From an uncultured Opitutia bacterium (lineage in GTDB: Bacteria > Verrucomicrobiota > Verrucomicrobiia > Opitutales > Opitutaceae): a stretch of DNA of 59,148 bases. Below, in pieces: positions 27,716-33,892 of the stretch. The stretch spans positions 1 through 59,148 of the forward strand of contig CAIOAO010000032.1 in NCBI GenBank assembly GCA_903855985.1, given 5' to 3'. Under the pieces are notes generated by a model. The model saw only the letters and a program-made list of their open reading frames with translations, was not told the DNA's origin and searched no databases. Made by a program: the position numbers and the translations under genes. The first letter of the stretch is position 1. Each line of letters starts with the position of its first letter.

Positions 27716-27843
27716 GGCGATATGAATCGTACCCGCCAAATTCCCTAATTATGATGGTCGGGTGCAATTCCGCGGTTGGAAATTCCTCCGGGGCAACTAT
27801 TCCAGAGGTCGTCCTTGACTGCCGAGGACCATCCACCCCGCCC

Positions 27844-30326
27844 ATGCAACCTGCCGACCAGCTCAAGGCGTCGCTCAAGGAAATCGGCGACCTCAAGGCC
27901 GCCATCGACGAGCACGCGATTGTGGCGGTCACGGATCCGCAGGGGAAAATCACCTACGTTAACGATAAGTTCTGCGCGATTTCCCAGTATGCGCGGGAGG
28001 AGCTCATTGGGCAGGACCACCGCATCATCAACTCGGGCTATCATTCCAAGGAAGTCTTCCGGGACATGTGGACGACCATCGGGCGGGGCAAGGTCTGGAA
28101 AGGGGAAATCAAGAACCGGGCCAAGGACGGTTCCTTCTACTGGGTGGACGCGACCATCGTGCCCTTCATGGATGCGGAGGGCAAACCCCGCCAATATGTC
28201 GCCATCCGCACCGACATCACCGTGCTGAAGCAGCACGAGCAGGAGATCGCCCGGCTTACCCGCCTCTACACGGCCCTGAGCCAGATCAACCAGTCGATTG
28301 TCCTGAGCCGGGAACGCGGCGAACTTTTCACCAAGATCTGCCAGGCGCTGGTCTCTCATGGCGGATTCAAGATGGCCTGGATCAGCCTGGTAGAGCCGGC
28401 CACCCGCAAGGTCGTACCCGCCGGGGTTTGGGGCGATGACACCCATTATCTCGACCACGTGGATATTTATGCCGATGACCGGCCCCAAGGCCGAGGCCCG
28501 ACGGGCACGGCAATCCAGGAGGCGAGGACCTATATTTGCAGGGACTATGAACTCGACCCCAACACCGGGCCGTGGCGCGAGGCGGCCGCCCGCTCCGGAT
28601 TCAAAGCCTCGGCGTCCCTGCCCATCCGGCAGGGCGGGGTCGTGTGTGGGGCAGTCACCGTCTACGCGGGTGAAAAGGGTTTTTTCCAGTCCAAGGATAT
28701 CGCGCTCCTGGAGGAGGCCGCGGGGGATATTTCCTTCGCACTCGACAACCTCGCGCGCGAAACCGTGCGGCAGGAAGCAGAAAAATCCTCCCGCGAAAGT
28801 GCGGAACGGTTCCGGCAGATTACCGAGAGCATCAACGAGGTATTCTGGATGACCGATCCGCTGACCGGTGGGCTCATCTACATGAGTCCCGCCTATGAGA
28901 AGGTCTGGGGGCGCACCTGCGCCAGCCTCTACCAGGCCCCGGATCGCTGGGTGGACGCACTTTATCCGGAGGACAGCGAGCGGATCCAGGCCGCGGCCCG
29001 GACCAAGCAAATCAAAGGGGAATACAATGAAACCTACCGGATTATGCGCCCCGACGGGTCGGTGCGCTGGCTCCATGAGCAGGCGTTTCCCGTGCGGAAC
29101 GAGGCCGGGGTGATTTACCGGATGGTCGGCGTGGTCCAGGATATCACGGACAACAAGCTCCTGGAGGCACAGTTTTTCCGGGCCCAGCGGCTAGAGTCGA
29201 TCGGGACGCTGGCCAGCGGCATCGCGCATGACCTGAACAACATCCTTGCGCCGATCATGATGGCGGCGCCGCTGATCCGCCACAGCAAGACCCCCGAGAT
29301 CACCGAAAAATGCTGGGGACCATCGAGTCGAGCGTGCAGCGCGGCGCCCGGCTGGTGCGGCAGCTCCTGACCTTCGGCCGCGGGGCCGAGGGCGAGAAAC
29401 GATCCCTTGCCATCGGGACGGTCATCCGAGAGATGGTCACGATCGCGGAGCAGACTTTCCCCCGGAACATCCAGATCAGTGCGGCCATCGCCGAGGGCAT
29501 CCCACCCATCCTGGCGGATGCGACGCAGGTACACCAAGTGCTGCTGAACCTGTGCGTCAATGCACGCGACGCCATGCCGAACGGCGGCCTGCTCTCCCTC
29601 AGCGCGGAGAATGTGCACCTGGACGGCACCTTTGCGGCCGCCACGCCCGGCGCGAAGGAGGGTGATTATGTCCGGCTGAACGTCACCGACACGGGCACCG
29701 GCATGACGCCGGAAATCATCAACAAGATTTTCAATCCCTTCTTCACCACCAAGGAACCGGGCAAGGGCACCGGCCTGGGCCTGGCTACGGTGATGGGCCT
29801 CGTGAAGAGCCATGGCGGCTTCCTGACCCTCCGCAGCGAGCCGGGCAAGGGGACGACGTTCCAGGTTTATTTTCCGGCGGTGTCAAAAACCGACACGGCC
29901 ACGCCGTTTGCCCAGGTCGTGGCCCTGCCAGCCGGCCATGGCGAACTCATCCTGGTGGTGGATGACGAGGAGAATATCCGGGACATTATCCGCGGCATGC
30001 TGATCCAGCAGGGCTACACCGTGATCGTGGCCGAGGATGGGATTGATGGCATCTCGCGCTACGCCCTGGCCCAGAATGAAATCAAGCTCATCCTCACCGA
30101 CCTGGACATGCCGGCGATGGACGGCGTGACGATGATCCGGGTGCTCAAGCAGATGAGCCCGAAACTGAAGGTCATCGTCTCGAGCGGGGTTCTGCGCGGC
30201 AAGCAGCTGACGCGCAGCCGCACCTCCGAACTGACCGCCCTCGGCGTCAGCACTTTCCTGGACAAGCCCTACACCGCGGCGCAAATCCTGCAGGCGGTGC
30301 ACGACGAGCTGCAGACCGCGCCCTGA
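27844..30326 (+). pseudogene. Hybrid sensor histidine kinase (PAS-GAF-PAS-HisKA-HATPase-REC), split by a frameshift
   Basis: Two adjacent frames together encode one hybrid kinase. The first (from ATG 27844; ATG 27751 is an alternative) has PAS (ITYVNDKFCAISQY), GAF (GFKMAWISLVEP), a second PAS (LIYMSPAYEKVWG) and the phospho-acceptor H-box IGTLASGIAHDLNNIL, then runs off at a stop near 29370. The second frame, open from 29310, has N-box NLCVNARDAM, DTGTGM, FNPFFTTK, GKGTGLGL and a receiver domain (VVDDEE, LILTDLDMP, DKPY). One extra A in the AAAAA run at 29306-29310 would join them as ITEKMLGTIESS. Either a real frameshift or a homopolymer sequence error. No transmembrane segment. Confidence 0.85.
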
Positions 30327-31430
30327 TCAACCCAGTTGGGCGATGACGGCGTCGGCCATGGCCCGGGTGCCGACCGAGTTGCCACCGAAGGCGATGTCGG
30401 CGGTGCGGGTGCCGGCGACGACGGCGCGCTTCACGGCGGCCTCGATCCGGGCCGCGGGCGCTTCTAGGCCGAAGCTGTAGCGGAGCATCAGTGCGGCGGA
30501 GAGGATCTGGGCGCAGGGATTGGCGAGGTCCTTGCCGGCGAGGTCGGGGGCGGTGCCGCCGGCGGGCTCGTAAAGTCCGAAGGGCAGGCCGCGGGAATTT
30601 CGGCCGGCGCCGAGCGAGGCGGACGAGAGCATACCGAGCGAGCCGCAGACGACGGCCATCTCGTCGGAGAGGATGTCGCCGAACATGTTTTCCGTCACGA
30701 ACACGTCGAACTGGTTGGGATCGCGCACCAGCTGCATCGCGGCGTTGTCCACGTAGAGGTGGCTGAGCGTGAGGTCGGGCGCGTGCTGCGCGACATAGGC
30801 GGTGACAGTCTTGCGCCAGAGGACGGACGTCTCGAGGACGTTGGCCTTGTCCACCGAGCAGAGTTTCTTTTTGCGCGCGCGGGCGGCGGTGATGGCGGTC
30901 GCGGTGATGCGCTCGATCTCGCTCTTGCGGTACACCATCGTGTCCACCGCCTGCACATCGCCGTCGGGGAGCGTGGTGGTCTGCTTGGGCAGCCCGAAGT
31001 AGAGGCCGCCGGTCAGTTCGCGGATGCAGAGGATGTCGATGCCGTTGGGGATGCGGGCGGTCTTGAGCGGGGAGGCGTCGGTGAGCTCGCGGTAGAGCAG
31101 GCCGGGCCGGATGTTGGCGAAGAGGGTGAAGTGCTTGCGCAGCGGGAGGAGCGCGGCGCGCTCCGGCTGCTGGGCGGGCGGGAGCTTTTCCCACTTCGGG
31201 CCGCCGACGGAGCCGAACAGGATGGCGTCCGCGGCGGAGCAGATCCTCAGCGTGGCATCCGGCAGGGCGCTGCCGTGGCGGTCAATGGCGGCGCCGCCGA
31301 CGTCGGCCGGGGTGGCCTCGAGCGTGAGGTTTTCCTGGCGGGCGACGACCGCGAGGACGCGCAGGGCCTCGGACATGACTTCGGGTCAGATATAGTCTCC
31401 GGCGATGACGGCGAACTTGAGGGCGGGCAT
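30327..31430 (-). pseudogene. leuB: 3-isopropylmalate dehydrogenase, interrupted by a stop codon at codon 15
   Basis: NAD-dependent enzyme of leucine synthesis. The natural start is ATG at 31430, giving MPALKFAVIAGD; then come TAT ATC TGA where the family has Gly-Ile-Gly, followed in frame by PEVMSEALRVL. The body is otherwise intact: [42 protein letters not shown] and GTAPDLAGKDLANP are present. An internal ATG at 31376 could restart translation but would lose the first beta strand and the glycine loop. The TGA is at 31386-31388. Either a decayed gene or a local sequence error. It is convergent with the sensor kinase, the stops being adjacent. Confidence 0.9.
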
Positions 31431-31520
31431 CAGGGATAATGGGGTAGTCGGGAGGCGGGGAAAGGGAAGGGCATTTTTCGCGGTTGCGCGACGGTGAAAA
31501 GGGCATGGATTGGCGGACCA

Positions 31521-32156
31521 ATGAAGTTGCATGTCCTGCCCGCCGGCCCGATCCAGACCAACGCCTACCTGCTGACCGCCCCGGAGCGCGGGGAGGCGGT
31601 GCTGATCGACGCGCCCGGGGACATCTGGGCGCAGGTTGCGCCGATCCTGGCCCGGGAGAAATGCCGGCTGACGGAACTCTGGCTGACGCACGGGCACTGG
31701 GATCACACGCAGAGTGCAGCGGAGGTGGTGCGTCTCACGAAGGCCAAGGTTCGCGCGCACGTGGCGGACAAGGCTTTCTATGAGACTCCGCAGATCATGA
31801 GCGCGTTCTTGTCCGGGCGCATTAAGCTCGAGCCGGTGTTTGCGGACAGTTGGGTGGAGCAGGGCGAGATCCTGAACGCACTGGGCACGACGTTGGAGGT
31901 GCGGCATGTGCCGGGACACTGCCCGGGCAACGTGCTGTTTTATTCGGCCGCCCTGAAGGCCGTGTTTGTGGGGGATGCCCTGTTTGCCGGCAATGTGGGG
32001 CGCACGGATTTTCCCGGGGGCAGCATGGAAATGCTCGCCGACTCGATCCGCCGGCAGATCTACACGCTGCCCGACGAAACAGTGGTTTACCCGGGCCACG
32101 GGCGTGCTACGACGGTGGGTGAGGAGAAACAACACAACCCCCATGTCCGCGGCTGA
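31521..32156 (+). CDS. MBL-fold metallo-hydrolase (glyoxalase II-like)
   Basis: A protein of about 211 residues with the metallo-beta-lactamase metal-binding motif THGHWDHT, further ligands in GHCPGNVLF, GDALFAG and a late PGHG. It resembles small glyoxalase II-type hydrolases that cleave thioesters. ATG 31521 was chosen because the family begins MKLHVLPAGPIQTNAYL-type; nine further codons are open upstream. Its last 14 bases overlap the ribD-like gene, so the two are translated together. Substrate unknown. Confidence 0.9.
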   Translation: MKLHVLPAGPIQTNAYLLTAPERGEAVLIDAPGDIWAQVAPILAREKCRLTELWLTHGHWDHTQSAAEVVRLTKAKVRAHVADKAFYETPQIMSAFLSGRIKLEPVFADSWVEQGEILNALGTTLEVRHVPGHCPGNVLFYSAALKAVFVGDALFAGNVGRTDFPGGSMEMLADSIRRQIYTLPDETVVYPGHGRATTVGEEKQHNPHVRG

Positions 32157-33303
32157 ACACGAGACTTTTATGCGGCGCGCCCTGGAACTGGCGCGCCAGG
32201 GCTGGGGTGGCACGCACCCGCAGCCCATGGTCGGGGCCCTGATCGTGGAGGATGGGCAAATTGTGGCGGAGGGCTGGCAAGCCCGGGACGGCGGATTCCA
32301 CGCCGTGAAAACGGCGCTCGCCAAACTGGGCCGGGCCCCGCGGGAAGGTGCGCTGCTCGTGGTGACGCTGGAGCCGGGCGGAACCGAGGAAGAGCTGGCG
32401 GCGGGCGCGGAGTTGATCATTGGCGCCGGCCTCAAACAGGTGGTGGCCGGAGCGACGGACCCGAACCCGGCCCACGCGGGCAAGGGATTTGACCACCTGC
32501 GCGCGGCGGGCATCGAGGCCGTGACCGGCGTGCTGGAGCCGGAGTGCACGGAGCTGAATCTCATCTGCAACCACTGGGCGACGCTCGGCACGCCGCTGAT
32601 CGCGGCCAAGGCGGCCGTGACCCTGGACGGCCGCATCGCCTGCCGCTCGGGCGATTCGCGCGGGATCACGGGAGAGCTGGCGCGGGAGGATGTGATGCGC
32701 TGGCGCCGGTTGTTTCCCTCCATCGCGGTCGGGGCGGGCACGGTGATGGCGGAAAATCCCCGGCTGACGGCGCGTCTGCCGGGCGCGAAGGAATGGTGCC
32801 CGGTACGCTTCGTGTTCGACGGGCTGCTGCGGAGTGTGGCGGACCGGGCGATGCCGCACGTTTACACGGACGAATTCCGCGAGCGCACGATTGTGGTGAC
32901 CACGCCGCACGGCGGCATGGGTTATGTGCGCAAACTGCGCGACCTGGGCGTGCAGGTGTGGATCCTGCCCTCGGGCACGCAGCGCGTCCCGCTGGGGGAA
33001 TTCCGGAAACGCTGCGAGCAGGAGAAAATCTCCGGGGTGTATTTTGACGGTGACGCCGCGCTGGTGAGCCAGATTTTGCAGGAAAAGCAGATCGACTACC
33101 TGTTTGTCTACCGGGCACCGGTGCTGCTGGCGGACGACCGCGCCAAGCCGATGCTCAGCGGCCTGCGCACGGAAAAGCTCCTGAATGCGGTGCGGCTGGC
33201 GGAGGTCCGGCATGAGGTGCTGGGCGACGACACGCTCACGCGCGGGCGGGTGACCTATCCCGGGCAGATGTTCATCGATGAAACTACATTTAGCCTCGGG
33301 TAA
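32143..33303 (+). CDS. RibD-type protein with degenerate deaminase domain, probable pyrimidine reductase
   Basis: A 386-residue protein laid out as RibD: an N-terminal CMP/dCMP-deaminase-like domain (residues 1 to about 140) and a C-terminal DHFR-like reductase domain (from about 145: AAVTLDGRIACRSGDSRGIT, VGAGTVMAENPRLTARLPG). In active RibD the deaminase has HAE and a PC...C zinc site. Here these read FHAV (His53-Ala54-Val55, catalytic Glu lost) and TLEPGGTEEEL (both zinc Cys lost). It should therefore carry out only the reductase step of riboflavin synthesis, as in plant PyrR. It starts at ATG 32143 inside the previous gene and overlaps rdgB by 26 bases. Confidence 0.85.
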   Translation: MSAAEHETFMRRALELARQGWGGTHPQPMVGALIVEDGQIVAEGWQARDGGFHAVKTALAKLGRAPREGALLVVTLEPGGTEEELAAGAELIIGAGLKQVVAGATDPNPAHAGKGFDHLRAAGIEAVTGVLEPECTELNLICNHWATLGTPLIAAKAAVTLDGRIACRSGDSRGITGELAREDVMRWRRLFPSIAVGAGTVMAENPRLTARLPGAKEWCPVRFVFDGLLRSVADRAMPHVYTDEFRERTIVVTTPHGGMGYVRKLRDLGVQVWILPSGTQRVPLGEFRKRCEQEKISGVYFDGDAALVSQILQEKQIDYLFVYRAPVLLADDRAKPMLSGLRTEKLLNAVRLAEVRHEVLGDDTLTRGRVTYPGQMFIDETTFSLG

Positions 33304-33892
33304 CGCGCACAAGGCCGCCGAATTTGCGTCGCTCGCGGCGGAGGCGGACCTGCCCGTGGAGATCGTCGCGGCCACGGGTACCGGGGGCATGCCGGCGGTG
33401 GTGGAGGACGCGGGGACGTTTTCGGGCAACGCGCGGAAGAAGGCGCAGGCGCTGCGCGGGTTACTGCCGGCGGGCGCATGGGTGCTGGCGGACGACAGCG
33501 GCCTGTGTGTCGCGGCGCTCGACGGCGGGCCCGGCGTGGAATCGGCCTACTATGCCGGGCCGCAGGGCGACAGCGCGGCCAACCTGCGCAAGCTGGTGGA
33601 AACGATGCGCGGAGTGCCGGCGGAGCGGCGGCAGGCCTATTTTGCCTGTGTGTTGCTGGTCATCGACCCGCAGGGCCGGGAACACGGGTTTGAAGGTCGC
33701 TGCGAGGGATCGCTGCGGGAGACGGCGGGTGGCAGCGGTGGATTTGGCTATGATCCGCTGTTTGTGCCGGCGGGCCAGACGCTGACGTTTGCGGAGCTGC
33801 CCGAAGCGGCAAAGCACGCACTCAGCCACCGCGGCCGGGCCTGGGCCAAACTGGCGGCTTGGCTGCGGGACCGGCCCGACGTGTCGGCTTGA
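33278..33892 (+). CDS. rdgB: XTP/dITP diphosphatase (non-canonical purine NTP pyrophosphatase)
   Basis: A 204-residue Ham1/RdgB-family enzyme that removes dITP and XTP from the nucleotide pool. Signatures: LASGNAHKAAEF at the N-terminus, NARKKAQAL, LADDSGLCVAALDGGPGVESA with the metal-binding Asp pair, GGFGYDPLF and the C-terminal LSHRGRAW. Length normal. It begins within the last codons of the RibD-like gene, completing a three-gene run with the MBL-fold hydrolase. Confidence 0.95.
   Translation: MKLHLASGNAHKAAEFASLAAEADLPVEIVAATGTGGMPAVVEDAGTFSGNARKKAQALRGLLPAGAWVLADDSGLCVAALDGGPGVESAYYAGPQGDSAANLRKLVETMRGVPAERRQAYFACVLLVIDPQGREHGFEGRCEGSLRETAGGSGGFGYDPLFVPAGQTLTFAELPEAAKHALSHRGRAWAKLAAWLRDRPDVSA

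Follow-up and report, generated by a model that had tools for sequence, protein, structure and literature searches.

The RibD protein encoded in the window, by which we mean the whole 59,148-nucleotide stretch analysed here, is most likely a conserved, catalytically crippled enzyme that, judged from its residues, has gone further than the plant protein PyrR. The RibD-like gene (32143..33303, + strand; 386 codons from the ATG at 32143 plus a stop) consists of an N-terminal deaminase-like half of about residues 4-143 (32155..32574, +), recognized from a PF00383 match to residues 4-102 and alignment to PDB 2b3z, and a C-terminal RibD_C reductase half (32593..33237, +; PF01872, E 1.8e-24). In profile searches the protein scored 42.8 bits against PF00383 and 85.3 bits against PF01872 and passed TIGR00326 with 221.4 bits (cut-off 156.35) over positions 1-341 of the 343 in the model. 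Residues 5-344 aligned with B. subtilis RibG (PDB 2b3z) at E 7.5e-58, so that homology to RibD is full-length and covers both domains. This is the only RibD in the 59-kb stretch, which comes from a contig of a 2.94-Mb, 110-contig assembly (G000).

The gene lies in a tight row and overlaps both of its conserved neighbours. The upstream one, which we take from its sequence to encode an MBL-fold hydrolase (31494..32156, +), overlaps the start of ribD by 14 bases, and the downstream one, presumably encoding an RdgB/HAM1-like nucleotide pyrophosphatase (33278..33892, +), overlaps its end by 26 bases. A presumed leuB-like gene (30327..31376, −) often adjoins the ribD locus in relatives, and the MBL hydrolase and RdgB-like neighbours also flank the intact RibDs of relatives. 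That the window protein is the ordinary, ancestral RibD of an Opitutae family, still at its usual locus, is part of the fuller explanation given below, to which as a whole we assign roughly even chances. Elsewhere in the window, what we take to be a PAS/GAF sensor histidine kinase occupies two overlapping frames at 27751-30326 (+; 27751-29370 and 29310-30326); the same locus in the nearest relative (L037) is one continuous frame, so the window copy is either frameshifted or an assembly error.

To describe the active sites, we used A. baumannii RibD numbering (Asn28, Glu56, Cys79, Cys88, Trp174, Asp204, Glu290). In the alignment, the deaminase half of the window protein has Gln in place of Asn28 (32221..32223, +), a substrate-site residue according to the available part of PMC3668577. 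The HAE motif has become HAV (32299..32307, +), with loss of the catalytic Glu56 to Val, and the zinc-binding Cys79 (32377..32379, +) and Cys88 (32404..32406, +) are both Gly, so that the PC(x)8C region reads PGGTEEELAAG. A preliminary description of this DNA had stated that all of the zinc and catalytic residues were gone; this is correct for the Glu and the two Cys, but the zinc-site His is retained. Its description of the deaminase domain as dead agrees with the ruined site and with changes beyond those expected by chance. Among the 28 deaminase columns conserved at 97% or more in 46 intact RibDs, 7 were changed in the window protein, 6 in its counterpart from genome G005 and 8 in that from G003, whereas intact RibDs tested over the same columns by leave-one-out had a median of 0 changes and a maximum of 3. 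The counts are based on 72 rows in which none of the seven key columns is blank: 46 intact, 25 dead and the foreign RibD of G009, which was kept out of the intact set.

We also looked for alternative zinc ligands. The deaminase half contains only two Cys residues, 134 and 141, both near its end; Cys134 is shared with an active RibD (P0004), in which position 141 is Phe, and inspection of the alignment by eye revealed no new ligand pattern in this half. An AlphaFold model of the protein, built on 4 sequences, had a mean pLDDT of 44 and was too poor for zinc-site geometry.

The reductase half was previously thought to keep its motifs, and here the alignment contradicts the preliminary description. 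While Lys156 and Arg211 are kept, Trp174 is replaced by Gly (32662..32664, +), Asp204 by Glu (32752..32754, +) and Glu290-Gly-Gly by Asp-Gly-Asp (33046..33054, +), which changes KWITG to RGITG, ADNP to AENP and VYFEGG to VYFDGD. In the accessible text of PMC3668577, Lys156, Ser172, Thr176, Asp204 and Glu290 are given as conserved active-site residues of A. baumannii RibD; section 3.4 describes how Trp174 sandwiches the pyrimidine, and Asp204 and Glu290 have each been proposed, by different groups, as the residue that starts the reaction. Among other rows that were not dead and had a letter at these positions, Asp204 was retained in 46/46 and Glu290 in 45/45, and each was retained in 13/13 rows from added genomes, which were fitted to the old alignment at fixed length so that single odd letters may be misalignments. 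Among all rows read, positions 204 and 290 were altered only in the window protein, G003 and G005 (204 also in G009). Trp174 is not invariant, as W was present in 54/60 non-dead rows with a letter there; the exceptions were three distant reductase-only rows (N, C or S) and three intact rows at the level of the order (R). Three of the 26 reductase columns conserved at 97% or more were changed in each of the window protein, G003 and G005; the median for intact rows was 0, but four distant intact rows had 2-5.

The identical substitutions occur in three assemblies, those of the window, G003 and G005. Loci L141 and L142 match G003 and G005 and were not counted as further cases, so the doubly altered RibD is known from three genomes only. 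The G003 and G005 proteins are 96% and 94% identical to that of the window, and the frame is intact in all three. Because all three carry the substitutions, the differences among them arose afterwards. Pairwise dN/dS within the trio was 0.11-0.20 for the deaminase half and 0.03-0.13 for the reductase half, which is 97-99% identical; values for intact genus mates were 0.05-0.21. When the window protein was paired with either relative, both halves had fewer nonsynonymous changes than expected under neutrality (four tests, p 5e-5 to 6e-15, nonsynonymous site fraction assumed to be 0.74). Purifying selection thus followed the loss of catalytic residues, as seen in these three genomes only. The recurrence of the same substitutions in G003 and G005, together with purifying selection on either half, strongly disfavours an error or a decaying gene, and the low dN/dS in both halves indicates that the protein is kept for something.

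We searched the window's own assembly for proteins that could supply the missing activities. It contained no second RibD_C, the one match being the window gene, and no second RibD-type deaminase, the sole other match to the RibD model up to E 10 being a presumably TadA-like protein at 44 bits. Three PF00383 matches were present besides the RibD in question, which we take from their sequences to be TadA-like, dCMP-deaminase-like and cytidine-deaminase-like. A promiscuous deaminase among these three, which might in principle act on the riboflavin precursor, was considered as a substitute and set aside; none was RibD-like beyond the TadA level. Lumazine synthase, GTP cyclohydrolase II and the coaBC domain PF04127 were likewise without a match in this assembly, which is nevertheless rated 100% complete. 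When the nearest relative's 8.8-kb coaBC-nad-rib stretch was used as a DNA query, with 40 of 202 first-look candidates scored, the assembly gave only the window ribD and a 35-base match. coaBC is nearly indispensable, and its loss in a free-living bacterium is implausible; because the coaBC stretch is also absent, a contig is probably missing from the assembly, which is a caution about completeness scores. Because the second RibD is absent alongside other riboflavin genes, the earlier proposal that another protein must perform the deamination could not be demonstrated in this assembly. No FMN riboswitch was found at the gathering threshold near the rib loci of the window, L044, L050, L053, L036, L040, L048 or L046.

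A second rib operon is present in both relatives with the doubly altered RibD. In G003 the order is coaBC-coaX-nadA-nadC-nadB-[reductase-only]-ribE-ribH, followed by ribBA cut near the contig end; in G005 it is nadB-[reductase-only]-ribE-ribH-ribBA-[intact deaminase domain, cut by the contig end]. Apart from RibD and RibH, which were identified by searches, the gene names are those we presume from sequence. The reductase-only protein has intact key residues in both genomes (K, W, D, R, E, G, G). Six genus mates whose RibD is intact have ribH and ribBA that share only 31-40% identity with these, so the G003/G005 operon was probably acquired from elsewhere. G005 additionally contains a shortened RibD deaminase remnant without the N-terminal part (L049:5945-6349); it is 80% identical to the second deaminase of that genome and was not counted as a partner.

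Other members of the genus differ. G009 has a different second cluster, ribE-ribH-ribBA-ribD (L053:2534-7053), with an intact, foreign-looking RibD; the cluster adjoins an integrase-like gene and a tRNA, which suggests that it was gained horizontally. A third form of damage in the genus was observed in G011, whose RibD (L035, 5938-7092, −) has the zinc His changed to Gln and the two Cys to Arg and Gly, retains the catalytic Glu, and reads EGD in place of EGG in the reductase half. Neither ribH nor a RibD partner was found in this 94% complete genome. Across the genus, ribH is present in 9/12 genomes and missing in G000, G011 and G006. Because G006 has an intact RibD and yet lacks ribH in its assembly (83% complete), the absence of ribH from an assembly is weak evidence.

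We classified 57 genomes by reading RibD motifs: nine had a ruined deaminase (G000, G003, G005, G009, G011, G019, G023, G029 and G047), 43 were intact, one was fragmentary (G022, two pieces resembling one broken gene) and four (G042, G045, G048 and G050) had no RibD, with best matches under 50 bits. A second RibD-type match above 100 bits was present in 7/9 genomes with a ruined deaminase (not in G000 or G011) and in 0/43 intact genomes, although few lineages are represented. We then surveyed 252 genomes of the family among the matches listed and read 69 more closely (37 + 32), so dead RibDs elsewhere may be missed. Low RibD scores among the matches listed drew attention to genera g9, g13, g19 and g64 (22 genomes). 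A low score alone is insufficient, because the low-scoring g54 genomes G150, G157 and G159 read as intact; of 13 further low-scoring genomes, 10 gave rows that looked intact where readable, several broken by contig ends (rows of G122, G250 and G253 were left out).

In these four genera, the residues lost and kept give good support for a bacterial PyrR/PyrD-like split. A RibD with dead deaminase and intact reductase residues was present in 20/22 genomes (the truncated G220 row shows Lys and Trp only), a deaminase-only protein with intact N, H, A, E, C and C in 21/22, and both together in 19/22, while no intact full RibD was found in any of the 22 among the matches listed. The missing items were RibD in G222 and G224 and the deaminase-only protein in G226. 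Both proteins are present in each of G217 and G227, which are listed as single-contig assemblies. The deaminase-only model match ran past the stop in G023, G168, G213, G224 and G225, and all motif residues precede the stop. The same arrangement, with its own substitutions, was found in G047, from another family of the order. The parallel to PyrR drawn in the preliminary description thus holds for these related genera; it fits the window protein poorly, which has lost the deaminase residues other than the zinc His and in addition has an altered reductase site, and whose two closest relatives encode a separate intact reductase. A separate RibD-type deaminase is present in G005 and was not found in the window's assembly, which appears to lack a contig.

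In a quick tree (119 columns), the deaminase-only proteins formed one clade (SH-aLRT 99) lying within the RibD deaminases of their own family, which suggests that they are duplicated RibDs that lost the reductase half. Reaching the dead deaminase takes a minimum of 4 changes on the reductase tree when G047 is included and of 3 on the deaminase tree; if only branches with good support are counted, the minimum falls to 1 and 2, respectively. In the genus of the window, G009 and G011 are scattered on the reductase tree, while all five rows group together on the deaminase tree; both are quick trees in which several rows are long. In G003, G005 and G009, where a second reductase is present, reductase residues of the old RibD are altered; where only a deaminase-only partner was found (g9, g13, g19, g64 and G047), they are kept. 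The activity predicted to be lost is the one that tracks the activity predicted to be supplied elsewhere.

Our best explanation, to which we give about even odds, is that an ancestral RibD with both sites altered was made redundant by the second operon and kept as a non-catalytic protein of the RibD fold. Both catalytic sites would have been altered in the window's sub-lineage, the second rib operon would remove the need for the old RibD's chemistry, and the old RibD would be retained under purifying selection on both halves in a role other than catalysis, such as that of an oligomer partner or a ligand-binding regulator. The window protein would then have lost both activities and may serve as a subunit or regulator, and its organism presumably also has the second operon, on the missing contig. 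For G003 and G005, reductase redundancy and selection can both be read from the sequences. RibD forms dimers or tetramers (PMC10366380, available part), and a RibD-enolase complex reported in Francisella (PMC12742849) suggests that RibD can have protein partners. Some observations speak against a pseudoenzyme. The swaps between Asp and Glu at 204 and 290 are conservative, and some reductase activity could remain; a working reductase would likewise account for the 97-99% identity of the reductase half; no second operon is seen in the assembly of the window; and in G011 the deaminase site is damaged, with neither partner nor ribH found. More tentatively, the doubly altered RibD can be placed as a regulatory or structural fold protein beside a second operon with separate reductase and deaminase; this possible reading includes a series in one order, from intact RibD, through a PyrR-like RibD with a deaminase-only partner, to the doubly altered form.

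The main rival holds that the conservative Asp/Glu swaps leave a working reductase: only the deaminase half would be dead, as in PyrR, with deamination supplied by a second RibD or a deaminase-only protein that has gone unseen. We think this rather doubtful. Such an arrangement, with intact reductase residues, does occur in 19/22 genomes of four related genera, the reductase half is strongly conserved within the trio, and mutation of zinc residues in E. coli RibD left the reductase unaffected (Magalhaes 2008, as cited in the available part of PMC3668577). However, the two residues proposed to start the reaction, 204 and 290, are altered only in the trio (204 also in G009), and G003 and G005 encode another intact reductase. 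An altered reductase pocket might instead act on another substrate, such as a pterin, a nucleotide or another pyrimidine, with the deaminase half purely structural. Conserved changes to pocket residues common to three genomes under purifying selection would fit this, as would the distant RibD_C proteins of g64 (L136-L138) with other residues at 156 and 174, but the neighbours are unchanged, the locus is that of intact RibDs and nothing points to a particular substrate, so we consider a new enzyme unlikely. It is quite unlikely that the organism has lost riboflavin synthesis, takes riboflavin up and carries RibD as a leftover. The absence of lumazine synthase, GTP cyclohydrolase II and a second RibD from an assembly rated 100% complete suggests this, but PF04127 (coaBC) and the coaBC-nad-rib stretch are missing too, which makes a missing contig probable; moreover, both closest relatives have the operon, and G006, with an intact RibD and 83% completeness, is also without ribH. 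Finally, two changed catalytic sites in a genome of 110 contigs, near a gene that is frameshifted relative to a relative, might indicate a decaying pseudogene or a sequencing artefact. We regard this as very improbable because the frame is intact in three genomes at 94 and 96% identity to the window protein, dN/dS is 0.03-0.20 and three assemblies carry the same substitutions.

Several known systems resemble parts of this picture. Plant PyrR (Arabidopsis; Hasnain 2013, via the available part of PMC9678776) is, like the window protein, a full-length RibD homolog whose deaminase-like half lacks catalytic residues, but the window protein has changes in the reductase site as well, and its assembly shows no partner. 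The RibDs of g9, g13, g19, g64 and G047 match PyrR in keeping the reductase residues, with the deaminase on another protein; their partner is a deaminase alone of about 150-178 residues, whereas plant PyrD is full-length with a dead reductase (PMC9678776). For the retention of dead halves in plants, the accessible text of that paper offers only possible explanations. In Aeromonas salmonicida, RibBA (RibBX) keeps a degraded RibA half, from which most critical residues have gone, while a separate, monofunctional RibA supplies the activity (PMC10012899, available part), although the enzyme is a different one and only one half is affected. Fungi and archaea use two monofunctional enzymes for the two steps (PMC3668577, available part), whereas here the dead domain is retained. 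Bifunctional RibD/RibG (PDB 2b3z, 3zpc and 2g6v) shares with the window protein its two-domain layout and full-length homology, and intact RibDs share its locus, but the two zinc Cys, the catalytic Glu, Asp204, Glu290 and Trp174 are changed in the window protein.

In Buchnera, ribD1 and ribD2 are separate genes. A literature search, limited to the titles and abstract openings of the matches listed and with coverage short of most subscription journals, retrieved no description of a dead-deaminase or deaminase-only RibD in bacteria. Genome annotation treats RibD as bifunctional, and because the window protein passes TIGR00326, automated annotation would probably call the doubly altered protein bifunctional and could wrongly declare the pathway complete. 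The group as a whole can be viewed as a graded series of a bifunctional enzyme coming apart (intact, half-dead with a partner, and altered at both sites yet conserved), and the bacterial examples may be easier to test than those in plants.

Three g64 genomes additionally encode a distant RibD_C protein: L137 (G219), L138 (G224) and L136 (G226). In G219 and G226 the RibD reductase residues are kept despite this protein, and in G224 RibD was unseen; a second RibD_C alone therefore does not predict a change in the reductase. At positions 156 and 174 the distant proteins do not have the usual Lys and Trp, and they may act in another pathway. In G219, L137:2689-4083 joins the distant RibD_C (28-30% identity) and a GTP cyclohydrolase II-like half in one open frame, and in L136 the RibD_C gene and a GTP cyclohydrolase II-like gene are adjacent.
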